Positions 27,066-40,438 of a stretch of DNA of 46,336 bases are shown in pieces. The position numbers were made by a program, and so were the translations under genes. The stretch's first letter is position 1. Every line of letters starts with the position of its first letter. The stretch comes from a virus. The stretch spans positions 1-46,336 of the IMG/VR virus record IMGVR_UViG_3300030451_001926; one strand, written 5' to 3'. The notes below the pieces were generated by a model, which had not been told where the DNA came from, did not search any database, and saw only the letters and a list, made by a program, of their open reading frames with translations.

Positions 27066-30000
27066 ATGGCCGCAGTACATCCATTAAAGTATATATTAAA
27101 TAACGACGGTACTATTGCCGAGTTTTCAGAATATTTAGATGCTGACTTTCTTGCAATAGAACACGGTGGTACAGGAGCTCAAACAGCTTCAGCTGCACGA
27201 ACTGCTCTAGGATTACAGATAGGTGTAGATATTCAAGCCTATGACGCAGAATTAGCTGCGTTATCTGGACTAACTCCAACTGACTCTAATTTTATAGTAG
27301 GTGACGGAAGCACTTTTGTAACGGAGTCTGGCTCAACAGTAAGAAACTCTTTAGGATTAGGAACTTCTGATTCTGTAGAATTTAGCACTTTACAAACAGC
27401 AAACCTAACTATAGGCGGACCTTCCCTAACATTAGAGGGTGCAACAAATGATTCTTTTGAAACAACACTAACTGTTACAGACCCTACAGCAGATAGAACA
27501 ATAACATTTCCTAATGCTACAGGTACAGTCGCACTTACTAGTGATATAACAGCTATAGATGTAGATTTTGCAGGCGATAGTGGTACTGGTGCGGTTACTG
27601 ATGCACAGACATTTACTATAGCTGGTACATCAAACGAAATAGAAACTAGCGCTTCTGGTCAAACACTTACAATTGGTTTACCAAATAATGTAACAATAGC
27701 TAACAATTTAACTGTTACAGGAAACTTAGATGTTAATGGTACAACTACAACTATTGATTCAACTAACACAACTGTAACTGATACATTAATTGAATTAGCA
27801 AATGGAACTTCTGGTTCTCCTTCAAATGATGCTGGTATCGTAATAGAAAGGGGAAGTGCTGATAATGCTTTTATAGGTTTTGATGAAAGCGAAGACAAGT
27901 TTATTGTTGGTACTGGAAGCTTTACAGGTTCAAGCACAGGAAATTTAACTATCTCAACAGGGACATTGGTTGCTGCTTTAGAAGGTAATGCAAGCACCGC
28001 TACAGCCTTAGCTACAGGTAGAACAATAGGAATGACAGGAGATGTTGTTTGGACATCTGCATCTTTTGATGGTTCTGGAAATGTAACTGGTACTGCGACA
28101 ATACAAGCAAATGCAGTTCAAATAGGAAACATAGATTTCTTAGTAGATGAAAACGATATGTCATCGGATTCAGATGTTAAAGTTCCTACACAGCAATCAG
28201 TTAAAGCTTATGTAGATACAGAAACAGCGAATGTTGCTTCTGACACTATGACACTAACAAATAAAACATTTGATGTTGAGGGAACTGGTAACAGCATATC
28301 TAACATTGATGTAGCAGATTTTAAATCTGGTGTACTAGATACTGATATATCTTCTGTTAGTGGTAGTGATGATACATTAGCTTCTGCAAAAGCAATCAAA
28401 ACTTATGTTGATGCACAAATAGCTACTGAAGATACTTTAGCTGAATTAAACGATACAAATATAACTTCCCCTGCTGATGGGGCTTTACTTTTTTATGATA
28501 ATGATAACTCAGTTTGGATTGACAATGTTGTATCTGGAGATATAACAATTGCAGATACAGGTGTTGCTACAATCGGTTCAGGCGTAGTAGAAAATGCAAT
28601 GCTTGAAAACTCAACTATGTCTGTGGGTGGTGTAACACTTACTCTTGGAGCTACAGACGCAACACCAGCTTTTAACTTATCTGACGCAACTGATTATCCT
28701 ACTTCCTCATTAAGTGGAACAATTACAAACGACCAACTTGCTGGTTCAATAGCGAACGCCAAGTTAGCTAACTCTAGTATAACAGTTACAGATGGCTCAT
28801 CATCAACAGCAATATCTTTAGGTGGAACTGCAACTTTTGCAGCAGGAGAGGGTATAGATGTAGGCGAATCATCTGGAACTATTACATTTTCTGGTGAAGA
28901 TGCAACAACATCAAATAAAGGTGTAGCTAGTTTTTCTTCTGATAACTTCGCAGTATCATCTGGTGCTGTAACTATAAAAGATAGTGGTGTTAGTAATGAT
29001 GAATTAGCTGGTTCTATTGCAAATGACAAGTTAGTTAACTCTGCTGTAACTATTAATAGTAACTCTCTATCATTAGGTGCATCATTAACTTTAGATACTG
29101 ATGATATCGGAGAAGGTTCTACAAATAAATACTACACTGACGCACAAGTACAAGCAGTATCAATAAACAATGTTGTTGAAGATACTACACCACAACTAGG
29201 TGGTAACTTAGATATTAATTCAAGCAATATTACAGGTACAGGAAATATTGATACAACTGGTGATATTACAATTACATCAACAAATACTGGCTCATCTGCT
29301 GGACCTATAATTAATTTAGTTAGAGATAGTGCTTCACCTGCTGATGCAGATTACTTAGGTCAAATAAAATTTAAAGGGGAAGATGATGGTGGTGCTTCTA
29401 CTGTTTATGCAAAAATAACTGGTAAGATTGATGACGCTTCTGCTGGAACTGAAGATGGTCTTATTGAATTTGCTACTATAAAAAATGGTTCAAGCAATAT
29501 AGCTGCAAGATTAAAAACTACAAACTTTCAACTATTAAATGGTACTGGATTAGAAGTCGCTGGTAGTGCGACAATTACTGGAGATTTAACAGTAAATGGA
29601 ACTACAACAACAATTGATACTACAAACACAGTTGTAACTGACACACTTATTGAACTTGGAAATGGTACTTCTGGAACACCTGCAAACGATTCTGGTTTAG
29701 TTATAGAAAGAGGAAGTGCTGATAACGCTTTCATAGGATTTGATGAAAGCGAAGATAAATTTAAACTTGGTACAGGTTCATTCACAGGTGCTTCAACAGG
29801 AAACTTAACAATCTCAACGGGAACTTTGATAGCAAATATTGAAGGTAACATAACTGGTAGCTCTGGTTCTACAACTGGTAATGCTGCTACAGCAACTACC
29901 TTAGCTTCTGCACAAAACTTTTCTTTAACTGGTGATGTTACTGCAAGTGCTGTTAGCTTTGATGGTTCTGGTGCAGTAGCACTAGCAACAACAATAGCTT

Positions 30001-31538
30001 CTGGTGCTGTAGATAACGACATGCTTGCAGGTTCTATTGCAAATGCAAAACTAGCAAATTCATCAATTACTGTTACCGATGGTTCTAATTCTACTGCTAC
30101 TGCATTAGGTGGAACTATTACATTTTCAGGAACTTCTAATGAAGTAGAGGTTGCTGAAAGTTCAGGAACTATAACAGTAGGTTTACCTGCATCACCAGAA
30201 ATAACTACTTCTCTTGGTATAGGTGGTGGTTCTACAAATGGTATTGTGTTATCACAAGGTGCTATAAAAATTAAAAATGGTGGAACACAATCATATATAG
30301 ATTTTTATTGTGAATCTAATAATGCACATTATGCAAGATTACAAGCTCCTGCACATGCAAGCTTTAGTGGTAATCCAACAATTACATTACCGTCCTCAAC
30401 ACAGACATTAGTTGGTAAAACATCTACTGATACTCTAACAAATAAAACACTTACTAGCCCAGTACTGAACACAGGTGTAAGTGGTACTGCAATAAAAGAT
30501 GAAGACAATATGTCTTCCGACTCCGCAACACATTTAGCAACACAACAATCTATAAAAGCATATGTTGATACAGAAACTGGTGCAGGTTTAATTACAGGTC
30601 AGACAGCAGAAACTTCTATAGCGAATGATGATTTAATTCTTATTTACGATACTTCTGCATCTGCATTGAGAAAGATGACTAAATCTAATTTTGTTTCTGG
30701 ATTATCAAGCAGTGGTAGTATGTCTAACTTTATAATAAGTGATGGCTCTACTACACAACAGATTGATGATGGAGAAACATTTACATTTACAAGTGGTGGT
30801 GGTATTACAGCTACAGTAAGCGCTACAAATACAGTTACGCTTGGAGCTAGTTCTACACTTATAACAGGACAGACAGCAGAAACATCAGTTAACACTTCTA
30901 ATGACTTAGTTCTTATTTATGATGCCTCAGCTACTGCTTTAAGAAAAATGACAGTATCAGACCTTATCGCAAGTGCAGGTTCTGGAAATATGTCAAGCTT
31001 TACATTAACAGGAGATAGCGGAAGTAACCAAACAATTGGAGATGGAGAAACATTAGACATTGCTGGTGGTACAGGTATATCTACTGTTGTAGGCGCTACA
31101 GACACAGTAACAGTCAATGTTGATGCTACTGTCATTACTGGACAAACAGCAGAAACAAGTATAGCTGATGATGACTTAGTTTTAATATACGATACTTCTG
31201 CTACCGCACTAAGAAAGATGACAAAGGCAAACTTAGTTTCTGGATTGAGTGGTGGCGGTGGTGCGGCAGATGAAGTTGTTGATGGAGACAATGATACAAA
31301 AATACAAGTAGATGAAGGGGATGCTGATGATGACACAATAAGATTTGATACAGCAGGTACAGAGAGAGCCACAATGGATGCTGGTGGTATGAACTTAACA
31401 ACTAATGGTGGTGTTTTTAATCATCACAGAACACAAGCATCAACATATACAATTGCTTCTGGAGAGGGAACAGTTATGGCGGGACCTGTTACAATAACTG
31501 GAACAGTAACAAATGCTGGTACAATGGTGATATTATGA
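27066..31538 (+). CDS. Giant tail fibre, 1,490 aa
   Basis: This protein is made of Thr/Ser/Gly/Asp-rich beta modules. A 90-residue module with [20 protein letters not shown] and [16 protein letters not shown] occurs twice (about residues 218-308 and 842-930). [25 protein letters not shown] segments recur around 370, 460 and 1160. Three copies of [23 protein letters not shown] lie near the end (about 1178, 1265, 1358). The last 35 residues ([19 protein letters not shown] and on) match the C-terminus of the small array proteins that follow. It is probably the main side fibre, with the downstream small proteins as exchangeable tips. Modules of this type are common in fibres of marine phages. Confidence 0.8.
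27708..27985 (+). repeat. Fibre module, copy 1
   Basis: This stretch encodes the 90-residue module [12 protein letters not shown]...NLTISTGTL. It is repeated with high similarity at about 29580-29850, roughly 1.87 kb downstream in the same gene, so recombination between the copies could delete or add a shaft segment. Confidence 0.8.
29580..29850 (+). repeat. Fibre module, copy 2
   Basis: This is the second copy of the module at 27708. The central part ([16 protein letters not shown]) is identical in protein, and the DNA differs mainly at third positions, so the duplication is not recent. Confidence 0.8.
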
Positions 31539-31744
31539 GTACACTACAAGTGGACACAATAAATGAAAATACCTCTGGAAATGGAGTCAATATTGATTCA
31601 TTTTTTGTAGGTGATGGTATATTGATGTCCCCAAAAACGATTTCTGCTACAAGAACTATTGCTTCTGATAAAAATGGTTTTTTAATTGGTCCAATAGATG
31701 TTTCCGGAACAATAACAATAGCAGGCAACTTGGAGGTTTTATGA
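31535..31744 (+). CDS. Array protein 1: short stalk/tip protein, 69 aa
   Basis: This protein begins [20 protein letters not shown], the N-terminal motif of the array (V(D/N)TI.E.T..NGV.IDG), and ends [20 protein letters not shown], which matches the last 35 residues of the giant fibre just upstream. It thus consists only of the shared N-terminal anchor and a shared beta end, with no variable domain. ATGA overlap with the giant fibre stop. Confidence 0.7.
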
Positions 31745-31959
31745 GTGTTTATATAGTAGATACAATTAAAGAAGGTAATCCCAATAAAGATATTGGGTTG
31801 ACTATTGAAAATACTTTGCTTCAAGATAACATAATTCAAACAGACCAAACTTCTAGTAAAAATATGACTATTGGTGCTTCTTATAATGCTTTAATACCTA
31901 ACGAATACATTGTAAATAGTGTGCTAACTATTGAAGGATTAGCGGTGGTGGTAGATTGA
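31741..31959 (+). CDS. Array protein 2: divergent short stalk protein, 72 aa
   Basis: It starts [20 protein letters not shown], a diverged form of the array motif, and has the same length and strand pattern as array protein 1 (SSKNMTIGASYNALIPNEYI in place of ASGKNGLxIGPxDI). It overlaps both neighbours by 4 nt. Probably a paralogue that has drifted. Confidence 0.65.
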   Translation: MSVYIVDTIKEGNPNKDIGLTIENTLLQDNIIQTDQTSSKNMTIGASYNALIPNEYIVNSVLTIEGLAVVVD

Positions 31960-32474
31960 GTACATTAAATGTAAATACAATAGGTGAAAGAACATCTGGT
32001 AATGGTGTTCAGATAACTGGTCATATAATACAAGTAGTAAGTGCTACTGATGCTGCATCAAGCAATGGTGATGCTACACCAAGATATGGTATTCAAAAAA
32101 CTAGTAACAGTTTTGAAGATACAGGTTTATCTGCAAGCATTACACCTAAAGCAACATCAAGTAAAATATTAATTTTAGTTAGACACAATCCTTTGACTTA
32201 TGCACCGGGAACAATTCCTTTTGGTGAATATGGATTATTCAGAGGTTCAACGCAAATAGATAGAGCTTCTGCTGGTATGAAAGCAGATGACCACCCTAGC
32301 GATAATAACGCTTATATAACAACACCTATAATTTTTGAATATGTAGATAGCCCTAGTACAACATCAGCAACTACTTATAAAACACAATGTAAATATATTG
32401 GCTCTAGCTCTGGATACACTTGGTCTGGATATTATGGTTTATCTTCTATAACATTACTGGAGATAGGTGGATAA
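31956..32474 (+). CDS. Array protein 3: putative adhesin, class I
   Basis: This 172-aa protein starts at TTG 31956 within the previous stop (TTGA). Residues 1-30 carry the array motif (MSTLNVNTIGERTSGNGVQI). The rest is a variable beta domain with FEDTGLSASITPKATSSKIL and a closing YVDSPSTTSATTYKTQ ... SSITLLEIGG. The same landmarks (TPK..SSKI, DSPSTTS..TYKT, MEIG-type end) recur in array proteins 8 and 10. It is likely a receptor-binding tip on a common anchor, and it is followed by a small acidic partner gene. Confidence 0.65.
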   Translation: MSTLNVNTIGERTSGNGVQITGHIIQVVSATDAASSNGDATPRYGIQKTSNSFEDTGLSASITPKATSSKILILVRHNPLTYAPGTIPFGEYGLFRGSTQIDRASAGMKADDHPSDNNAYITTPIIFEYVDSPSTTSATTYKTQCKYIGSSSGYTWSGYYGLSSITLLEIGG

Positions 32475-32770
32475 TGGAAATAAGTAAAATGGATGCGATA
32501 TTTAGTTTAGTTCCTAATGCTAAGTGCAGTTTGTTAGGTGGCGAAATAGTTTCTTGGGATAGTGAAGAAGCACAACCAACTGAAGAAGAAATAACTGCTG
32601 AAATGGAAAAATTACAAGCAGAATATGATTCAAATGAATATCAAAGAAATAGAGCTGCTGAATATCCATCAATAGCAGACCAACTTGATGACATATACCA
32701 TAATGGAATTAATGCTTGGAAAGCTACTATTAAAACAACAAAAGACAAATATCCGAAACCGAGTGAATAA
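32474..32770 (+). CDS. Array accessory A: acidic fibre-assembly-like protein, 98 aa
   Basis: I choose ATG 32474, which overlaps the preceding stop. The protein has a short strand part (PNAKCSLLGGEIVSWDSEE) followed by PTEEEITAEMEKLQAEYDSN and a helical end with SIADQLDDIYHNGINAWKAT. The same plan is seen in the proteins at 34986 and 36497. By size, position after an adhesin, and the helix with Q-L-D-x-(L/I/M)-(Y/W)-H, it resembles tail fibre assembly chaperones. The pairing with the adhesin is inferred. Confidence 0.65.
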   Translation: MEISKMDAIFSLVPNAKCSLLGGEIVSWDSEEAQPTEEEITAEMEKLQAEYDSNEYQRNRAAEYPSIADQLDDIYHNGINAWKATIKTTKDKYPKPSE

Positions 32771-32982
32771 TGGCTAGTGAATTAGAAGTAAATGCTTTAA
32801 TAGAAAATACAACTGATAATGGTATCAATATAGATAGTTTATTGTTTTCAGGAAGTATTTTAATACAAGATGAAAACATACCAGAGCAAACTATTGCTAG
32901 TGGTAAAAATGCACTGATTATTGGACCAGCAAAGTGTCCAAATAAGTTAACAGTTGTCGGAAAAGTCCAAGTGGTAGGATAA
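32770..32982 (+). CDS. Array protein 4: short stalk protein, 70 aa
   Basis: It starts MASELEVNALIENTTDNGIN and ends with IASGKNALIIGPAKCPNKLT, so it has the same two shared modules as array proteins 1 and 5 and no variable domain. TAATGG overlap with the accessory gene upstream. Confidence 0.68.
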   Translation: MASELEVNALIENTTDNGINIDSLLFSGSILIQDENIPEQTIASGKNALIIGPAKCPNKLTVVGKVQVVG

Positions 32983-32983
32983 A

Positions 32984-33193
32984 ATGAGCACATTAAAAGT
33001 AGATACAATAATTGAGAGAACAACTAACAACGGAATTGCAATAGATAGTTTTGCTGTAAAAGATGGTATTATTAATCACGACAATACTATTTCTGGTACA
33101 GTAACAATCGCAAGTGGAAAAAACGGATTAGCTATTGGACCAGTAGATATAACAGGAACTGTCAATGTTTCGGGGAACTTTAAAATATTATGA
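32984..33193 (+). CDS. Array protein 5: short stalk protein, 69 aa
   Basis: It starts MSTLKVDTIIERTTNNGIAI and ends with ASGKNGLAIGPVDITGTVNV. It is the closest in sequence to array protein 1 and to the C-terminus of the giant fibre. It starts one base after the previous stop and its own stop overlaps the next ATG (ATGA). Confidence 0.7.
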   Translation: MSTLKVDTIIERTTNNGIAIDSFAVKDGIINHDNTISGTVTIASGKNGLAIGPVDITGTVNVSGNFKIL

Positions 33194-33741
33194 GTGAAAT
33201 AAAAGTAAATACAATATCAGAAAAGACTGCTGCTAATGGTGTGACTATTGATGGCGTTTTAATTAAAGATGGTAATGTAGATGGAGTTGATGTTTCTGGT
33301 GTTCCTTCAGCAGTAAGTAGTACTTACACTTGTACAATTACTTATGATACAGATATAACTGAAACTGTTTCATCTAATTATGAAACACAAAATATTACTG
33401 CATATTATTACTCAGTTGGTAAGTTGTATCATTTTTGGCTACCAACAATTACTAGAAGTACAGTATCTGAAAACTCAGACTTTATTATTAACCATGTTTC
33501 ATTACCTGCTACAAGCTCATCAACTAATATGACAGTTAATCTTGTTCAAGGTTATAACTTGCAGGGTAGATATGCAAATACTGATTACACTAATGGTTAT
33601 CCTGCCGCAGTTGTATCAAGTAATGCTACTACTGCCGCTACACAATTTTATGGAACACAGGGTACTTCTGGTCAAGGTAAGTTAAGAGTTTATGGCGAAA
33701 GTGGTACTTGTAATATATCTGGATGGTTTATAGGAGCATAA
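33190..33741 (+). CDS. Array protein 6: putative adhesin with unique C-terminal domain
   Basis: In this 183-aa protein, residues 1-35 carry the array motif (NTISEKTAANGVTIDGVLIK) with the extra KDGNVDGVD. The C-terminal domain (about 50-183) is unlike the others: Thr/Ser/Tyr-rich strands such as TYTCTITYDTDITETVSS, YYYSVGKLYHFWLPTITRS and RVYGESGTCNISGWFIGA. It is plausible as a receptor-binding beta sandwich. It is followed by accessory B. Confidence 0.62.
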   Translation: MSEIKVNTISEKTAANGVTIDGVLIKDGNVDGVDVSGVPSAVSSTYTCTITYDTDITETVSSNYETQNITAYYYSVGKLYHFWLPTITRSTVSENSDFIINHVSLPATSSSTNMTVNLVQGYNLQGRYANTDYTNGYPAAVVSSNATTAATQFYGTQGTSGQGKLRVYGESGTCNISGWFIGA

Positions 33742-33947
33742 TGGAATATTTAATATTATCAGAATACAAACACATTAACGAAACTAATTTAGAAACAATG
33801 CACAAGAAAGTTTATACACCAGATATGGATGTATCTGGAGAAAGCCAAGAAGTACAAGACTTAGCAGATGAACACTGGACACAGGAAGTAAAAGATGCGT
33901 GGGCAGCTAAATTATTAGCAGACCAACCACCAGAGCAGGATGAATAA
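33741..33947 (+). CDS. Array accessory B, 68 aa
   Basis: I choose ATG 33741, overlapping the preceding stop. The sequence starts MEYLILSEYKHINETNLETM and has an acidic helical end (DLADEHWTQEVKDAWAAKLL). It is not similar to accessories A, C and E, so it may be a different kind of partner for array protein 6. Unknown family. Confidence 0.6.
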   Translation: MEYLILSEYKHINETNLETMHKKVYTPDMDVSGESQEVQDLADEHWTQEVKDAWAAKLLADQPPEQDE

Positions 33948-34501
33948 TGAGTAAGATTAATGTAAATACAGTTAATGAATTTACAAGTGGAAATGGTGTA
34001 ACTGTTGATGGATTGTCTATTAAAGATGGACAAGTTACAGATTTTATGTTTGATATATGGCGACAAACAGCAGATAGAACAGGTAGTGCTACAGACTATG
34101 AATTAACATCTAACTGGGAAAGAGTAGATGATTCAACTATTGGTTTTATTGGAACAGGTATGTCAGAGAGTTCAGGTATATTTACATTTCCACAAACAGG
34201 TATTTATAAAATTACATTTTCATTAGAAGCATACAATAATAGCAATACTGATGGTGTTGAAGCACAGATACACGCAACTACAGATGGTAGTTCTTATAGC
34301 CAAATTATTAAAAGAACAATAAGTATTCGTTCAACTGGAGATACTGAAGAAGGGTATGCAATAACTTCTTTTGATTGCACAGATACAACAACACATAAAT
34401 TAAAATTTGTTGCTGCTGATTTTAAGTCATCTACTGTTATGAACGGAAGTTCAACTAACTCTGAAACCTATGTGATATTTGAAAGACTAGGAGCAACATA
34501 A
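33947..34501 (+). CDS. Array protein 7: putative adhesin, class II (C1q-like)
   Basis: This 184-aa protein has the array motif (NTVNEFTSGNGVTVDGLSIK) and KDGQV, then a beta domain with FIGTGMSESSGIFTFPQTG followed by IYKITFSLEAY. This 'GIFTFPxTGxYxI' pattern is typical of C1q/TNF-like jelly rolls. It ends with SETYVIFERLGAT. Array protein 11 (35934) has the same domain, and the two share long DNA stretches. Trimeric C1q-like tips are known in phage fibres; receptor binding here is inferred. Confidence 0.65.
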   Translation: MSKINVNTVNEFTSGNGVTVDGLSIKDGQVTDFMFDIWRQTADRTGSATDYELTSNWERVDDSTIGFIGTGMSESSGIFTFPQTGIYKITFSLEAYNNSNTDGVEAQIHATTDGSSYSQIIKRTISIRSTGDTEEGYAITSFDCTDTTTHKLKFVAADFKSSTVMNGSSTNSETYVIFERLGAT

Positions 34502-34986
34502 TGAGTAGTGAAATTTCAGTAGATACAATAAGTGAATATACAACTAGCAACGGTGTTTATATTGCTGGTCATATTTTACAAGTAGTTCAAGGTACATTTT
34601 CTACACAATCAAGTAGTACAAGTAGCACACACCAAGATACTGGTTTGAGTGTAGCTATAACACCAAAATCTACTTCTTCTAAAATTTTAGTACTTATGCT
34701 ACATCATACAAAAATACAGAGAAGTACTACAAGTGCTAATGCTACTGTAAAAATATTAAGAGATTCAACAGAGATAGAAAGTGCAAATCACTTCTTCACT
34801 GATGCAGGTGGTAACGCAGCATCTACACAAAACTTAACTGCAAGTATTTTAGATAGTCCAAGTACTACTTCTGAAATAACATATAAAACAACATTTGGTG
34901 TTGACAATGCTGCTAACTCAGAAACTATTTATATTGCTTGGGGTAATAGAACAGATAGGTTAATAGCAATGGAGGTAGGTGCTTAA
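34501..34986 (+). CDS. Array protein 8: putative adhesin, class I
   Basis: This 161-aa protein starts MSSEISVDTISEYTTSNGVY and continues IAGHILQVVQGTF, like array protein 3 (ITGHIIQVV). The variable domain has HQDTGLSVAITPKSTSSKIL, ILDSPSTTSEITYKTT and a RLIAMEVGA end. It is followed by accessory C. Coupling is by TAATG on both sides. Confidence 0.65.
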   Translation: MSSEISVDTISEYTTSNGVYIAGHILQVVQGTFSTQSSSTSSTHQDTGLSVAITPKSTSSKILVLMLHHTKIQRSTTSANATVKILRDSTEIESANHFFTDAGGNAASTQNLTASILDSPSTTSEITYKTTFGVDNAANSETIYIAWGNRTDRLIAMEVGA

Positions 34987-35273
34987 TGGCTGACAAAACA
35001 CAAGCAATATTGGCGTTAGAGCCAAATGCAAAGTTTACAATGGTAGGAGATGAAATAACATCTTGGGAAAGTGATGATATAGAACAGCCTACTGAAACAG
35101 AAATCAATGCAAAAATTGCAGAATTAAATATTTTAGAAGATAGAAAAATAGCTTACGGAAATATTACTGACCAACTTGATAAACTGTGGCACGATATAAA
35201 CGATGATAAGCTAGATAAAACAGGAACTTGGTTTCTTGCAATCAAAAAAGTTAAGGACGATAATCCAAAATGA
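34986..35273 (+). CDS. Array accessory C: acidic fibre-assembly-like protein, 95 aa
   Basis: This protein has the same plan as accessories A and E: a first part with LALEPNAKFTMVGDEITSWE, PTETEINAKIAELNILEDRK in the middle and a C-terminal helix NITDQLDKLWHDINDDKLD ending KKVKDDNPK, a tail that is nearly identical in accessory E. The level of identity between C and E suggests gene duplication with the array. Likely a chaperone for the neighbouring tip; inferred. Confidence 0.68.
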   Translation: MADKTQAILALEPNAKFTMVGDEITSWESDDIEQPTETEINAKIAELNILEDRKIAYGNITDQLDKLWHDINDDKLDKTGTWFLAIKKVKDDNPK

Positions 35274-35782
35274 GTCAATTAAATGTAGATACACTAGGAG
35301 CACAGACAGGTAGTTTGATATCTTTAGCGTCTAATAATTTTAATAACTTTGGAATTATTCAAGCCTCTTCTTTTGGACCAATAGGTGGTACTGGTAATCA
35401 ATTAGAAACTACAGATACTGGTTATGAAGATGTACCAAACCATACAATTACATTAACACCAAAAGTTGCTACCTCAAAAATATTTGTTCTTATGTCCACA
35501 GGTTATTGGGCAGCTGATGTTCCGGGAAATATAAAATTAGTTGAAAACTCTAGTGGGTCTTTTGTAGATGTTCACGAGATGAAGTTTCAAGGTATGTCTG
35601 CTGGTCAAGCTAGCATCGGTGGAAATACTGTTGTTTGTGGTTTAATTGACCATAACACTACTAACGCAGTAACAATGAAAATGCAAGGTGCAAGAGCAGA
35701 TAGTTCTGGCTCAAATAGATTTAGAATAACTTGGTATGACCAAGAAGCATTTGGTATTGCTCTTGAGATAGGAAACATATAA
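35270..35782 (+). CDS. Array protein 9: putative adhesin, class I variant
   Basis: This 170-aa protein has a shortened anchor (MSQLNVDTLGAQTGSLISLA) that lacks the NGV.IDG part. Its C-terminal domain is class I: HTITLTPKVATSKIFVLMST and ALEIGNI at the end. It overlaps accessory C (ATGA) and is followed by a shortened accessory. It shows that the anchor and the variable domain evolve separately. Confidence 0.62.
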   Translation: MSQLNVDTLGAQTGSLISLASNNFNNFGIIQASSFGPIGGTGNQLETTDTGYEDVPNHTITLTPKVATSKIFVLMSTGYWAADVPGNIKLVENSSGSFVDVHEMKFQGMSAGQASIGGNTVVCGLIDHNTTNAVTMKMQGARADSSGSNRFRITWYDQEAFGIALEIGNI

Positions 35783-35937
35783 TGGCTGAATTAAGTGATG
35801 CAATAGTAGCAATAATAGATGGTGGAGATGTTACATACACATTTGATGGTGCAAAGATTTTAACTTGGGTATCAGATACAGTTGATAAACCAACACAAGA
35901 AGAACTAGAAGCAAAATTAGCGGAGCTTAACGAATGA
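35782..35937 (+). CDS. Array accessory D: shortened form, 51 aa
   Basis: This gene reads MAELSDAIVAIIDGGDVTYT and ends PTQEELEAKLAELNE. It has the N-terminal half of accessories A, C and E but lacks their C-terminal QLDxxxHD helix. It overlaps array protein 9 (TAATGG) and the next array protein (ATGA). It may be a degraded copy or a minimal partner. Confidence 0.6.
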   Translation: MAELSDAIVAIIDGGDVTYTFDGAKILTWVSDTVDKPTQEELEAKLAELNE

Positions 35938-36497
35938 GCCAAATTAATGTAAATACAATAGCAGAATACGCATCTGGAAATGGTGTAACTGTAGATGGTG
36001 TTGTATTAAAAGACGGTAATGTTCCATCAGGTCTTACAGAAGTAGATGCTTGGCAACTTACAGCAAATATAACTTCTGATGGCGATATAACTTCTAATCT
36101 TCAAAGGATGGTAGGTACTGCTGTAGGTTATAAAGGAACAGGTATGACAGAGAGTTCAGGTGTATTTACATTTCCAAGCACAGGTTTATGGCTTGTTACA
36201 GTTCAACCAAATTTTGAAATTAATAACGACCCATCCTGTGAAATTTCTATACAAGCGACAACAGATAATTTTTCAAGTGTAAATACAAGAGTTGCATCTG
36301 CTGCAATAGGTAACAGAAGTTCTACTGGTGCACATTACTACAATGTTGAAGTATCACAAGTTATTGATGTAACAGATACTTCAAATGTAAAAGTTAAATT
36401 TGCAGCAGGAAGTTTTGCATCAGGTTCTACTGCTTATGGTGGAACAACAGCATCTTATAGTACAAGTTTTAGATTTATTAGATTAGGAGATACATAA
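35934..36497 (+). CDS. Array protein 10: putative adhesin, class II (C1q-like)
   Basis: This 187-aa protein has the array anchor (NTIAEYASGNGVTVDGVVLK) with KDGNV and a C1q-like domain with YKGTGMTESSGVFTFPSTG then LWLVTVQPNFE, and a SFRFIRLGDT end. It is a paralogue of the protein at 33947, with blocks of near-identical DNA in the anchor and in the GTGM..FPxTG part but different loops, a pattern of diversification at one face. It is followed by accessory E. Confidence 0.66.
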   Translation: MSQINVNTIAEYASGNGVTVDGVVLKDGNVPSGLTEVDAWQLTANITSDGDITSNLQRMVGTAVGYKGTGMTESSGVFTFPSTGLWLVTVQPNFEINNDPSCEISIQATTDNFSSVNTRVASAAIGNRSSTGAHYYNVEVSQVIDVTDTSNVKVKFAAGSFASGSTAYGGTTASYSTSFRFIRLGDT

Positions 36498-36802
36498 TGT
36501 TACAGAAAGCATTAGCTCACTTCAATACAGACAAACACCAATGGTATGGTTGGAAAGATATTGCAGATGGCGAAGTATATTCTAACCTAAAGTTAAATGA
36601 TGAAACTGCTGTAATGCCTACTGAGGAAGAAGTAAATGAAAAGATTGCAGAACTTACAGTAATACAAAATAGACAAGATGCTTACGATAGTATTACTGAC
36701 CAATTAGATAAAATGTATCATGACATTACTGCTGGTAAACTTGATGAAACAGGTGAGTGGTATAAAGCTGTTAAAAAAGTCAAAGATGATAATCCAAAAT
36801 GA
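36497..36802 (+). CDS. Array accessory E: acidic fibre-assembly-like protein, 101 aa
   Basis: The N-terminus differs (MLQKALAHFNTDKHQWYGWK), but the remainder follows accessories A and C: PTEEEVNEKIAELTVIQNRQ, SITDQLDKMYHDITAGKLDE and KKVKDDNPK at the end. Start and stop overlap the neighbouring adhesin genes. Probable assembly chaperone for one of them; inferred. Confidence 0.68.
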   Translation: MLQKALAHFNTDKHQWYGWKDIADGEVYSNLKLNDETAVMPTEEEVNEKIAELTVIQNRQDAYDSITDQLDKMYHDITAGKLDETGEWYKAVKKVKDDNPK

Positions 36803-37896
36803 GCGAATTAAAAGTTGATAAAATATCCACTAATGATGGTAATAATGTTGCTTTAGGTAATTCTTTAAAATTAAAGTCATATACTACTTCACAAAAAAAT
36901 GCACTTACTTCTGTTGCTGGAGATATGGTGTATGACACTGATTTAGGTAAGCCACAAATATACAATGGAACACAATGGAATACTTTTGGAGAAGAAGATA
37001 GAGCAATAGATATAGATTTTCTTGTAGTTGCTGGTGGTGCTTCTGGTTATCACTCATACGGTGGTGGTGGAGGAGCAGGAGGTTTTCGTGCATCTTGGAA
37101 TAATGAAACTTCTGGTCGTGGTGCAAGCTCTGAAACTGCACATATCTTAGCTGCTGGTCAAAGCTATGAAGTATCAGTAGGCGGTGGAGGCTCTGGTAAT
37201 GGTGGTACAGGTAATAATAGTTCTTTTGCAGGGATAGAATCAACTAGAGGTGGTGCAGCAGACAGTAATGCTGGTAATGATGGAGGCTGTGGCGGTGGTG
37301 GTCGTTGGGCTAGTAATTCTGGAGGCTCTGGAACAACAGGTCAAGGTTATGATGGCGGTGCTGCAAACGGTGCTGCTGCTAATGATGGCTTATCTGGAGG
37401 AGGTGGCGGAGGAGCAGGTGCTGCTGGTGCAACAGCTTCAGCTGGATATGGTAGTAACGGAGGAGCAGGTGCAATTTCATCAATTATAACTACTAGCCAA
37501 GCAACAACTCATAGTGTAGGTGAAGTTTCTGGCTCAGATGTTTATTATTCTGGAGGAGGCGCTGCTGGATTATACAGACCAGACCCACCTTCTACTGGTA
37601 GGAAAGGCTCTGGAGGTTTAGGTGGCGGTGGTAATGGTGGTATCAACTCTGCTGCTGGTAATAATTTATCTCCAGAAAATGGAACTGCTAATACTGGCGG
37701 TGGCGGTGGTGGTCAAGGAAATGCTCAATCAAGTGCAGGTAATGGTGGCTCTGGAGTTGTAATACTTAAATGGCTTACAGCAGATGCAACATTAGGTGCA
37801 ACAAGAACAGGTTTAACAGATACTGGGGTACAAACTGATGGAGATTATAGTTATATAGTTTTTACAGCAGGTACAGGGAATATTACATTTACTTAG
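36799..37896 (+). CDS. Array protein 11: glycine-rich adhesin
   Basis: This 365-aa protein has an anchor variant (MSELKVDKISTNDGNNVALG) followed by LKSYTTSQKNALTSVAGDM and GKPQIYNGTQWNTFGEEDRA, then IDFLVVAGGASGYHSYGGGG, the entry of a glycine-rich domain. Residues 75-330 are packed with GGGG and GGxGG clusters, similar to glycine-sandwich adhesins such as the T-even-type gp38 tip and to glycine-rich domains in marine phage fibres. The C-terminus is a small strand pair (YSYIVFTAGTGNITFT). Such domains fold as polyglycine II sheets with variable receptor-binding loops. Its anchor is repeated in the gene at 38287. Confidence 0.75.
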   Translation: MSELKVDKISTNDGNNVALGNSLKLKSYTTSQKNALTSVAGDMVYDTDLGKPQIYNGTQWNTFGEEDRAIDIDFLVVAGGASGYHSYGGGGGAGGFRASWNNETSGRGASSETAHILAAGQSYEVSVGGGGSGNGGTGNNSSFAGIESTRGGAADSNAGNDGGCGGGGRWASNSGGSGTTGQGYDGGAANGAAANDGLSGGGGGGAGAAGATASAGYGSNGGAGAISSIITTSQATTHSVGEVSGSDVYYSGGGAAGLYRPDPPSTGRKGSGGLGGGGNGGINSAAGNNLSPENGTANTGGGGGGQGNAQSSAGNGGSGVVILKWLTADATLGATRTGLTDTGVQTDGDYSYIVFTAGTGNITFT

Positions 37897-37903
37897 GAGA
37901 AAT

Positions 37904-38287
37904 ATGGCTCATTACGCATTTTTAGATGAAAACAATAAAGTAGTAGAAGTTATTACAGGAAAAGGTGAAGATGATACTGATACCTTACCAGAAGAATTTG
38001 ATAGCTGGGAAGATTGGTATGCAGACTTTAAAGGATTAACTTGTAAAAGAACTTCTTACAACACAAGAGCTAATACACATACTAACGGTGGAACACCATT
38101 TAGAGGGAACTATGCTGGCTTAGGATATACTTATGATGAAGATAATGATGTTTTTATACCACCAAAGCCATACCCAAGCTGGACATTAAATTCTAACTGG
38201 GAGTGGGAAGCACCTGTTGATTATCCAGATAGTGTTAATTTACATTATTGGAACGAAAATCTAGGTGAGTGGGAAGAGATTACATAA
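37904..38287 (+). CDS. Array accessory F: fibre-region protein of a marine phage family
   Basis: This 127-aa protein starts MAHYAFLDENNKVVEVITGK and ends with YPSWTLNSNWEWEAPVDYPD and LGEWEEIT. I recall proteins with this MAHFA.LDE start and YPSW.L end near fibre genes of cyanophages and other marine phages; their role is not established. GGAGAAAT precedes the ATG as ribosome site. Its last bases overlap the next ATG. Confidence 0.65.
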   Translation: MAHYAFLDENNKVVEVITGKGEDDTDTLPEEFDSWEDWYADFKGLTCKRTSYNTRANTHTNGGTPFRGNYAGLGYTYDEDNDVFIPPKPYPSWTLNSNWEWEAPVDYPDSVNLHYWNENLGEWEEIT

Positions 38288-38484
38288 TGTCTACTAGCGA
38301 AGTAAAGTTAAATACATTATCAAAAAGCTCTGGTAATAATATATCTATGGATTGTGCATTAGGTATAAAATCATACACAACTACTCAAAGAGATGCTTTA
38401 ACAAGTGCTGCTGGCGATATTATATTTAATGAAACAACTGGAAAGCCACAATTTTACAATGGTTCTACTTGGAAACAATTTTAA
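38287..38484 (+). CDS. Array protein 12: short anchor-only protein, 65 aa
   Basis: I choose ATG 38287, at the end of accessory F. The sequence MSTSEVKLNTLSKSSGNNIS, IKSYTTTQRDALTSAAGDII and GKPQFYNGSTWKQF matches the first 75 residues of the glycine-rich adhesin at 36799 but stops where the glycine-rich domain would start. It closes the array and may be a truncated adhesin or an anchor awaiting a tip. Confidence 0.66.
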   Translation: MSTSEVKLNTLSKSSGNNISMDCALGIKSYTTTQRDALTSAAGDIIFNETTGKPQFYNGSTWKQF

Positions 38485-38529: not shown

Positions 38530-38721
38530 ATGGATATACCAATATTCCCAGACGGGACCAAAAGAGAAGATGCTATCAATGAGTTAATTGATGACGAGCA
38601 ATTTAAAGAGACTGTTTTAAAGCAGTTTAATTATATGCGAATCAAAGGAATCAACCTTGTTCAAGACGCAGATGATTTGGTAAATATGTACCTTAAAATC
38701 TGCAAACAGTTTGACGACTAA
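38530..38721 (+). CDS. Hypothetical protein, 63 aa
   Basis: It starts MDIPIFPDGTKREDAINELI and is helical and acidic (NLVQDADDLVNMYLKICKQF). No family recognised. It follows a TATAAT box by 8 nt, and has no ribosome site. Confidence 0.55.
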   Translation: MDIPIFPDGTKREDAINELIDDEQFKETVLKQFNYMRIKGINLVQDADDLVNMYLKICKQFDD

Positions 38722-38762
38722 AAAGAACTCATCTAAAAGCCAATAACCTACAATTAACCTGT

Positions 38763-38768
38763 TATACT
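38763..38768 (+). promoter_or_regulatory. Possible -10 box
   Basis: TATACT at 38763 lies 30 nt before the ATG at 38799, in the 77-nt gap. Unlike the leaderless cases, a clear GGAGG ribosome site (38790-38794) follows. A -35 is not obvious. Confidence 0.3.
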
Positions 38769-38798
38769 GTGTATATATAAGAACGACTTGGAGGTCAA

Positions 38799-39002
38799 AT
38801 GGCAGATAATGTTAAATTAGAGGATATGAATATAGAACAGCTTAGAAACGCTGTTACTTCTCTTATCCAACAACTACAACAATCAGACGCTACTATTCGT
38901 GATTTAGGTGCAAAAGTTGCAAATAAAGAAATCGAAAATTCAAGACTTAGAACAGTTTTAGAAGCTAGTAGACCTGCACCTGCTCCACAAGAAGAAGAAT
39001 AA
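38799..39002 (+). CDS. Small coiled-coil protein, 67 aa
   Basis: It has a helical heptad pattern (LRNAVTSLIQQLQQSDATIR, then VANKEIENSRLRTVLEASR) and a Pro/Glu tail. GGAGG at 38790 is a strong ribosome site. Function not recognised; an oligomerising structural or regulatory protein is possible. Confidence 0.6.
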   Translation: MADNVKLEDMNIEQLRNAVTSLIQQLQQSDATIRDLGAKVANKEIENSRLRTVLEASRPAPAPQEEE

Positions 39003-39006
39003 ACTA

Positions 39007-39237
39007 ATGAGTTTAGAAAATTTCGCTGAAGAAGAACACAGCCAATCTAACAGGGTTGCGTGGAGAGATAGAACACCAGAAAATCGAGAAGCTTGGAAAG
39101 AAGCTTTAGAAGGTATAGACAAAGGTTATCCTATAAGCACTATTGCTAGATGGTTAATGAAAGAAAAAAATTGTCCTTTATCAATTCATACACTTCGTCA
39201 TCAACTTAAAGAAACACACGATGTCAAGTCTGGATGA
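39007..39237 (+). CDS. Small putative HTH protein
   Basis: This 76-aa protein has a helical C-terminal half, GYPISTIARWLMKEKNCPLS then IHTLRHQLKE, that resembles a helix-turn-helix of the kind seen in small phage DNA-binding proteins. It overlaps the metallophosphoesterase gene by 17 nt, so the two are likely made together. DNA binding is inferred. Confidence 0.55.
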   Translation: MSLENFAEEEHSQSNRVAWRDRTPENREAWKEALEGIDKGYPISTIARWLMKEKNCPLSIHTLRHQLKETHDVKSG

Positions 39238-40438
39238 TTATACCAAAGCTGTAAGAAGCGTACAAAACGCCAAAGCTGACAAGAAAGAACACCCTAAAGG
39301 ATGGGAGCCCGGCGTAGTTTTAGACGGAGGTAAAAGTTATGTTGCCTCTGGTCCTGTTAAATCTGAAAAAGAAGCAAGAAAAAAATGGGACGATTATATA
39401 GAGTTACTTGGCTTTCCTGCTGATGAATTTGAAATTATAGAACCTGTTCATGTCAGAACATGGGATATGCAAACATCAGAAGGTGTTCAAAGAATGTTTT
39501 ATTATAAAGCAGATGTCCGCTCTAGGAAACATATTGAAAATGATAAAGATTTTGATAAGCTTGTTGCAGAAATTAAAAAAGCAAAAAAACCTGCTAGAAA
39601 AACAAAAACCAAAGAAAATGGAAGTATGGTAGTTTGTCTTTCAGACTGGCAACTCGGTAAACGAGATGGAGATGGAACAGAGGGTATTATAGCTAGAGCT
39701 ACTCAAATGATTCCGGATGTAATTGATAGAATGAAAGAATTGCGTAAAGCGGGTAATCCAATAAACAAATTATATGTATTTGGATTAGGTGACCTCGTCG
39801 AAGGGTGCGGAGACCATTACGCCATGCAACAGCATCAAATTCAAATAGACCAGCGTCGCCAAGAAATGGTAGCTAGGAGATTAATTATTAAAGCTCTTAT
39901 GGCTTGGTCGCCACATTTTGATAAAATTGTTGTTGCAGCTGTTCCGGGCAATCATGGAGAAAACAGAAAAAATGGTAAAGCATATACTACTTTTGGTGAC
40001 AATATGGATGTATCTGTATTTGACCAAGCACAAGAAGCTTTATCGATGAACAAGATATACAATCATATATCTTTTGTAATACCAGATAATGAGTTATGGC
40101 TTACATTAGATATTGATGGTGTGATTGTAGGATTGGCTCATGGTCATCAATTTCGTACCGGTGGTCGATACTCACATCAAAAAGCAGTAGCTTGGCTATC
40201 CGGACAAGCATTTGGTAAAACAGATATAGGAGATGTAGATATTCTTCTATCTGGTCATTTTCATCATTTGTTTGTTATTAATGAGGGACAAAGAACTCTT
40301 ATGCAAGCTCCTTCTGTTGATGGTGGCTCAGAGTGGTTTGAAAACTTAACTGGTAAAAACTCTTTTTCGGGAGTTTTAACATTTACTGTTAAAAACAAAG
40401 AAAACAAACTTCCGTGGGATAATATGCAAGTATTATGA
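39221..40438 (+). CDS. Calcineurin-like metallophosphoesterase
   Basis: The phosphoesterase motifs are in order in this 405-aa protein: D142 in CLSDWQLGKR, GLGDLVEG (D191), VPGNHGE (N244, H245), GLAHGHQF and LLSGHFHH. They bind two metals and hydrolyse phosphodiesters. The first motif has D-W-Q where D-x-H is usual, so one metal ligand is changed. The N-terminal 130 residues are a separate, basic domain (KSEKEARKKWDDYIELLGFP). Metallophosphoesterases occur in many phages, including actinophages; roles in DNA metabolism or 2',3'-cyclic nucleotide removal are possible. The gene lies between an HTH protein and the lysis genes. Confidence 0.82.
   Translation: MSSLDDYTKAVRSVQNAKADKKEHPKGWEPGVVLDGGKSYVASGPVKSEKEARKKWDDYIELLGFPADEFEIIEPVHVRTWDMQTSEGVQRMFYYKADVRSRKHIENDKDFDKLVAEIKKAKKPARKTKTKENGSMVVCLSDWQLGKRDGDGTEGIIARATQMIPDVIDRMKELRKAGNPINKLYVFGLGDLVEGCGDHYAMQQHQIQIDQRRQEMVARRLIIKALMAWSPHFDKIVVAAVPGNHGENRKNGKAYTTFGDNMDVSVFDQAQEALSMNKIYNHISFVIPDNELWLTLDIDGVIVGLAHGHQFRTGGRYSHQKAVAWLSGQAFGKTDIGDVDILLSGHFHHLFVINEGQRTLMQAPSVDGGSEWFENLTGKNSFSGVLTFTVKNKENKLPWDNMQVL

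Follow-up and report, generated by a model that had tools for sequence, protein, structure and literature searches.

Tips and accessory domains appear to be exchanged together in a viral array of small adhesin genes

When short viral genes begin alike and end differently, what is the unit that moves between phages? The question is raised by viral DNA of 46,336 bp (IMG/VR record IMGVR_UViG_3300030451_001926, positions 1 to 46,336; GC content 36%), hereafter the window. Positions 31535-38484 hold an array of genes, all on the plus strand, behind the gene for a giant tail fibre. Twelve share an N-terminal motif and have different C-terminal parts, and six small accessory genes are found among them. 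We refer to the motif genes as adhesins (g), to their N-terminal segments as anchors, to their C-terminal parts as tips and to the accessories by the letter c. A preliminary description pictured a store of exchangeable receptor-binding tips, each with its partner, on one giant fibre. Comparison of related contigs shows that the exchanged unit, as read from alignments, is a tip plus the N-terminal half (N-half) of the following accessory. The unit crosses a gene boundary and lies between two constant blocks. These are the first ~34 codons of the adhesin and the C-terminal half (C-half) of the accessory.

The record also encodes a terminase, portal, head protease, HK97-type capsid, PhageMin_Tail tape-measure-like protein and tail proteins. 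This set of head and tail genes suggests a long-tailed phage. A search by DNA match found no close phage isolate; the nearest matches were ~100 bp of Pelagibacter phage fibre.

An array of motif genes and accessories

The motif was examined with a hidden Markov model (HMM), built from 20 N-terminal segments taken from other contigs only. We used this to search the 162 six-frame open reading frames (ORFs) of the window. All twelve array adhesins were recovered, always with the motif at the N-terminus, and no other ORF was. Eight matches are strong (g01, g03, g05, g06, g07, g09, g10 and g14; E<2e-8) and four are weak (g16, g18, g12 and g02; E 0.004-0.022). Since the model is independent of the window, a chance or non-coding origin of the motif is ruled out. 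Adjacent genes overlap by 1 or 4 nt at 15 of the 17 internal junctions, and a 4-nt overlap also joins the giant-fibre gene to g01. Hence, the earlier statement that all genes are coupled by overlap holds except at g05/g06 (1-nt gap) and g16/c17 (7-nt gap). Start sites were corrected for c04 (32474), c08 (33741) and g18 (38287). We conclude that the array is real. The twelve genes with a common N-terminal motif, their differing C-terminal parts and the six interleaved small proteins are all as first described.

Such an array might be silent, a single tip being expressed at any moment while the rest serve as alternatives. Numerous alternative tips behind related anchors would suit this arrangement, and phage Mu switches tip and chaperone through an invertible segment. 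Searches for such machinery were negative. No reverse transcriptase (PF00078) was found in the record, which may be a fragment, while the positive control was detected; this agrees with the preliminary description. The record, with the same proviso, also yielded no resolvase or invertase and no tyrosine recombinase or integrase. No convincing inverted repeats were seen in the window, and none flank the cassettes. For this record, we therefore rejected both a diversity-generating retroelement and a Mu-type invertible fibre segment. The genes run in a single direction with overlapping stop and start codons, and anchors at two positions are not interchangeable (see below). A silent store is thus very improbable, and this part of the earlier proposal is not supported.

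Tips and accessory N-halves are exchanged together

The exchange is clearest between two contigs, each sampled twice in our set of loci (L100 and L045 are the same contig, as are L093 and L046). The anchors are ~92% identical at the DNA level (83/90 nt). The tips that follow are unrelated, one C1q-like and the other class I. The accessory N-halves are also unrelated, and in these regions the alignment is only noise. From accessory codon ~52 to the end of the gene, 178 of 180 nt are identical. Loci L253 and L255 have the same pattern with a different tip and accessory family. Between two phages with swapped neighbouring tips, short stalk-only counterparts remain 97-99% DNA-identical. More broadly, one anchor (85-100% DNA identity) and one accessory C-half (82-91%) are common to eleven contigs, in which three tip superfamilies nonetheless occur, each with a matching N-half.

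Is matching between tip and N-half general? Among 195 non-redundant loci there are 117 accessory genes. Of the 113 with an upstream same-strand neighbour, 112 have it within 50 nt, and the genes upstream of accessories cluster into four tip superfamilies. The tips were clustered unsupervised, giving 103 pairs, and the N-halves were clustered separately. N-half type predicts tip superfamily in 102 of these pairs. For 90 non-redundant pairs, mutual information is 1.140 of a maximum 1.179 nats; shuffles, which ignore relatedness, have a mean of 0.104, and the observed value was not reached in any of 10,000. Because shuffling disregards descent, the eleven contigs above are the better control; their DNA is shared on both sides while tip and N-half change together. 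Consistently, where accessory C-halves are at least 80% identical and N-halves belong to different clusters, tip superfamily differs in 31 of 34 pairs. Homologues of another accessory, c17 (phrog_7759), lie behind a Gly-rich gene of >200 amino acids in 43 of 49 cases, compared with 135 of 908 long genes overall. The idea of exchangeable tips, each with a class-specific partner, therefore stands, with the amendment that only the N-half of the partner belongs to the unit.

Anchor families likewise carry assorted tips. Family MSEIQVNTI occurs in 12 contigs with 7 tip clusters, MSSELKVDTISEKTS in 16 with 8 and MANGKIKADTLEHS in 10 with 10. Most other genes, tabulated by cluster, have one cluster each, unlike these fibre anchors. 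Note that a screen of N30 identity, split by motif, gave no separation (discordant pairs: 15% for motif genes, 14% for other genes) because the 'other' set was full of further fibre anchors (MAYIGKTP, MAIIKPNNN and MPGSIKIDDG). When gp37 of the isolate HMO-2011 was used as an anchor probe among isolates, it matched only itself.

A second type of event is evident at g09. Compared with L038 (4696-5283) and L039, g09 is unrelated up to nt 102 and then, to its end, is ~94% DNA-identical in L038 and ~89% in L039. Only the tip, from codon 35 onward, is shared, and the L038 phage is otherwise unrelated to the window.

Could these swaps be chimeras of metagenome assembly, made at repeated anchor or chaperone DNA? 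The data are mostly metagenomic contigs and the junctions fall within conserved repeats. Against this, the g09 joint has no repeat and is shared by the separate contigs L038 and L039. Random chimeras would also not be expected to preserve the tip and N-half match across the joint. Furthermore, similar arrays are known from isolates. In Puniceispirillum phage HMO-2011 and pelagiphage HTVC115P, there are ~10 short tandem tail-fibre genes, with C1q and class I tips and an XkdW-like accessory. These isolates belong to a different phage group, have other anchors, and their arrays are annotated gene by gene only. We give assembly artefacts only a slim chance.

Whole arrays are also replaced. To the right of the array, the genes d63, d67, d76 and a metallophosphoesterase/exonuclease (38530..40438, plus strand) mark the same slot in relatives. 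This flank is ~55-95% conserved there, and the adjoining array is replaced. The slot holds oxygenase-like and other genes in L034, fewer but larger adhesins in L035, and other arrays in L036 and L037. Gene order and number vary widely among related phages. Hence, the fixed array that would have contradicted the preliminary description was not seen; the comparison that it proposed found gain, loss and exchange of tips.

A possible mechanism and its precedents

By what route might tips move? Anchor copies inside the window are 61-78% identical in DNA; for anchors that occupy one position in different phages, the figure is 85-100%. This makes exchange between co-infecting phages likelier than shuffling within a genome, and the low identity of the window copies argues against the latter as the main route. 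Recombination between conserved anchors, as first proposed, fits the observed exchange behind anchors if it occurs mostly between phages; it leaves the g09 joint unexplained.

We propose, with a probability of roughly 0.68, that the array encodes co-expressed miniature trimeric adhesins with tip-matched two-domain chaperones, and that phages renew their specificities by recombining with one another. In each adhesin, a constant N-terminal segment, for docking or as a stalk, would precede a receptor-binding C-terminal tip that varies (unique, or of TNF-like lectin, C1q-like or Gly-rich type). Many adhesins would be followed by their own chaperone, whose N-half would recognize the tip class and whose constant C-half would trimerise and drive folding. 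All adhesins would be co-translated and displayed together, presumably on the virion, so that each particle has several specificities, probably including sugar binding. New specificity would enter when two phages recombine within one cell. Crossovers in adhesin anchor DNA and in chaperone C-half DNA, probably by homologous recombination, would replace a tip and its matching chaperone domain at once. In this way, a new tip would come with a helper able to fold it.

Several observations weigh against this proposal. First, the g09 joint links two unrelated anchors and so could not have arisen by homologous recombination at the anchor. Second, c13 is without the C-half that the chaperone model requires. 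Third, resemblance of the accessories to known chaperones is slight. In the predicted structure of c11, three helices accompany a small alpha-beta-beta N-half. Residues 2-54 match PBSX XkdW (2hg7) weakly, and with a second aligner only (Z 5.1, root-mean-square deviation (r.m.s.d.) 2.9, 52 residues, 25% identity). Foldseek with c11 gave no significant match in the PDB or among viral structures, and no Tfa. The Pfam XkdW cut-off was not reached by c11 (17.3 bits vs 24.6, E 0.004) and c15 did not match. Fourth, the shuffles above take no account of relatedness, which the same-anchor contigs answer only in part. Finally, the position-specificity of anchors, described next, was measured in a neighbouring phage group rather than in that of the window.

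In the Gly-rich genes of this neighbouring group, alignments show anchors to be positional at two gene positions. Anchor amino acid identity is 0.89 between C anchors and 0.90 between D anchors, compared with 0.59 between C and D within a genome. The order of C and D is fixed wherever both are present. This position-specificity, at the two best-sampled positions, argues against the anchors being interchangeable alternatives for one site. For 34 of 82 Gly-rich tips, the best match is behind a different anchor type. A tentative elaboration of our proposal is that anchors are position addresses, between which, and between phages, tips move almost freely. The tip-chaperone code would keep new tips foldable, as each tip would share a two-gene cassette with its matching N-half, and the constant C-halves of the chaperones would serve as landing sites. 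If so, recombination would seldom yield dead fibres.

Position-specific anchors would also suit a serial fibre, in which the short proteins are end-to-end links of one composite structure, like T4 gp34-35-36-37. The stalk-only proteins of 69-72 amino acids would be connectors, with tips on the last members only. The ends of these short proteins resemble the end of the giant fibre, and their near-identical counterparts beside swapped tips are what structural links would be like. The motif is moreover found in tandem within single proteins (L038 3731-4357 and L036 7052-7834), like a stalk unit. Hence, to judge from these copies, the motif might be a repeating unit of the stalk as well as a docking segment. 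However, many globular tips of one array would need to sit inside the chain, and the wide variation in gene order and number is likewise unfavourable. We consider a serial fibre unlikely. Attachment of the array proteins to the one giant fibre, as the preliminary description had supposed, is not supported by the sequence data.

The proposed co-expressed adhesins and chaperones have precedents. In the solved structure of Pam3 gp24/gp25, the variable N-domain of gp25 binds a TNF-like/Gly-rich fibre tip and the conserved C-domain trimerises (PMC9608196). By analogy, Pam3 is a structural precedent for chaperones with a tip-binding N-domain and a trimerising C-domain. Both systems have a short trimeric fibre, at least as predicted here, with TNF-like and Gly-rich tips and a downstream two-domain chaperone. 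Unlike the array, Pam3 has a single fibre gene, an N-terminal helical docking domain and a larger beta-sandwich chaperone N-domain (PMC9608196). The Tfa protein of phage Mu, as outlined in two papers, is a small modular chaperone encoded behind the fibre and matched to its tip (PMC9608196, PMC7289586). The array accessories are, on that outline, similarly small, modular, tip-matched and positioned behind an adhesin. They differ in that neither sequence comparison nor Foldseek gave a significant match to Tfa, and an invertible segment is absent here.

In Alteromonas phages V22 and A5, a fibre and its cognate chaperone form a module common to distantly related marine phages (PMC7289586, PMC10579305). 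There the whole module moves, with one fibre; here a tip and half a chaperone appear to move, within a many-gene array. Hypervariable metaviromic islands of marine phages contain the same kinds of gene (tail fibre, C1q, XkdW and tail-fibre assembly), and the available part of that paper describes neither cassette boundaries nor tip-chaperone matching (PMC3909814). In the branched tail-spike complex of Ackermannviridae, multiple receptor-binding proteins have docking domains that are conserved at the N-terminus, and their specificities are exchangeable (PMC11414711). Compared by description, and unlike the array, the complex consists of a small number of large enzymatic spikes docked on each other, and it has no half-chaperones matched to tips.

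Thus, modular tail-fibre exchange, transfer of whole fibre-chaperone modules and hypervariable marine fibre islands are already known. The new element is a dense array of miniature adhesins with split-chaperone cassettes. A cassette spanning the adhesin-chaperone boundary, with tip-class matching over ~100 pairs, was not found in the literature searched, which was mostly without subscription journals. The added rule, that the moving unit starts within the adhesin gene and stops within the chaperone gene with both ends constant, indicates how exchange can stay functional; the tip and the domain that would recognize it travel together. Most receptor-binding genes of marine phages lack annotation, and the rule offers a means to predict cognate chaperones and cassette boundaries in these phages. 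Tip swaps in relatives of a marine bacterial virus also suggest how such viruses change attachment targets.

Individual genes and their surroundings

All genes below are on the plus strand. The giant fibre (27066..31538) has 1490 amino acids, and its C-terminus is resembled by the short stalk ends of g01 (31535..31744, 69 amino acids), g05 (32770..32982, 70 amino acids) and g06 (32984..33193, 69 amino acids). Antisense ORFs inside the giant-fibre gene (window minus strand, 28694-29029, 29528-30022 and 30917-31372) have the look of repeats read in reverse rather than of genes. The weak motif of g02 (31741..31959, 72 amino acids) is followed by a short end, and g18 (38287..38484) is a B-type anchor or stalk without a tip. 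The motif of g07 (33190..33741) has the best HMM score of the set and precedes a unique tip. A search of phage isolates with g07 and a 69-amino-acid stalk protein gave no match.

Class I tips, of TNF-like lectin type, are carried by g03 (31956..32474, with a TTG start) and g10 (34501..34986), and a class I-like tip by g12 (35270..35782), for which a search found no relatives. The g10 monomer model (43-row alignment) has a pLDDT of 88 and a jelly-roll with the first 20 residues disordered. Its nearest TNF-like lectins are PLTL (Z 15.6 over 127 residues, r.m.s.d. 2.0) and BC2L-C (Z 14.9), with r.m.s.d. values of 2.0-2.1. By this model, the predicted g10 tip is a TNF/C1q jelly-roll, closest to bacterial TNF-like lectins, and we infer that the tips may form trimers and bind glycans.

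The C1q-like tips belong to g09 (33947..34501) and g14 (35934..36497), a label that rests on pattern and mutual homology (44% identity over the whole protein). Neither matched Pfam C1q, or any Pfam family up to E 1, and phrog_25122 matched g14 only. The D-type anchor of g16 (36799..37896) precedes a Gly-rich tip that matches Gly_rich_2 (PF21722) at 58.8 bits, above the cut-off of 24.3.

PHROG matches are mostly of 'unknown function', and the small proteins might instead act outside the virion, as soluble lectins or as other factors, secreted or intracellular. This seems far-fetched, since the same tips end long fibres. In the relative L034, a C1q-like tip is fused onto the C-terminus of the giant fibre (32% identity over 159 residues). 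Matches to the class I profile include a PHROG 6942 tail fibre and, at E 4e-16, the C-terminal end of orf22, which has 18 copies in the solved assembly 9efk. In addition, the genes adjoin the giant fibre, and homologues in isolates are annotated as tail fibres.

Among the accessories, c04 (32474..32770, XkdW/Tfa-like, partner of g03), c11 (34986..35273, partner of g10, the N-half fold being weakly XkdW-like) and c15 (36497..36802, partner of g14, with a C1q-type N-half) are full-length paralogues matching phrog_9114/1787, the three recognized at the outset. We predict that they act as chaperones. A related paralogue, c13 (35782..35937, 51 amino acids), is an N-half only; perhaps a paralogue provides the C-half, or this half has been lost. 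Of another family is c08 (33741..33947), with a weak match to phrog_6228. The phrog_7759 accessory c17 (37904..38287) follows the Gly-rich g16, as its homologues follow Gly-rich adhesins.

Relatives and other phages contain further genes of note at or near these sites, with the enzyme genes assigned by eye. In the near relative L034 (11318-18442), adhesins are missing from the slot, which is filled by an island of enzyme genes, oxygenase-like and ferredoxin-like ones among them. A GIY-YIG-like homing-endonuclease ORF lies inside the adhesin array of L037 (6515-6967), directly 3' of a c17 homologue, and could promote recombination there. In the unrelated phage L041 (8616-9053), an HNH-like Cys-rich ORF separates the adhesin array from the long fibre. 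The otherwise different phages L036 (16579-19368), L037 (16109-18511) and L038 (7957-9864) encode, downstream of their arrays, a long protein that has the common end MTSDQ(K/R)EKAQEVVVPVI and is very acidic in L038.

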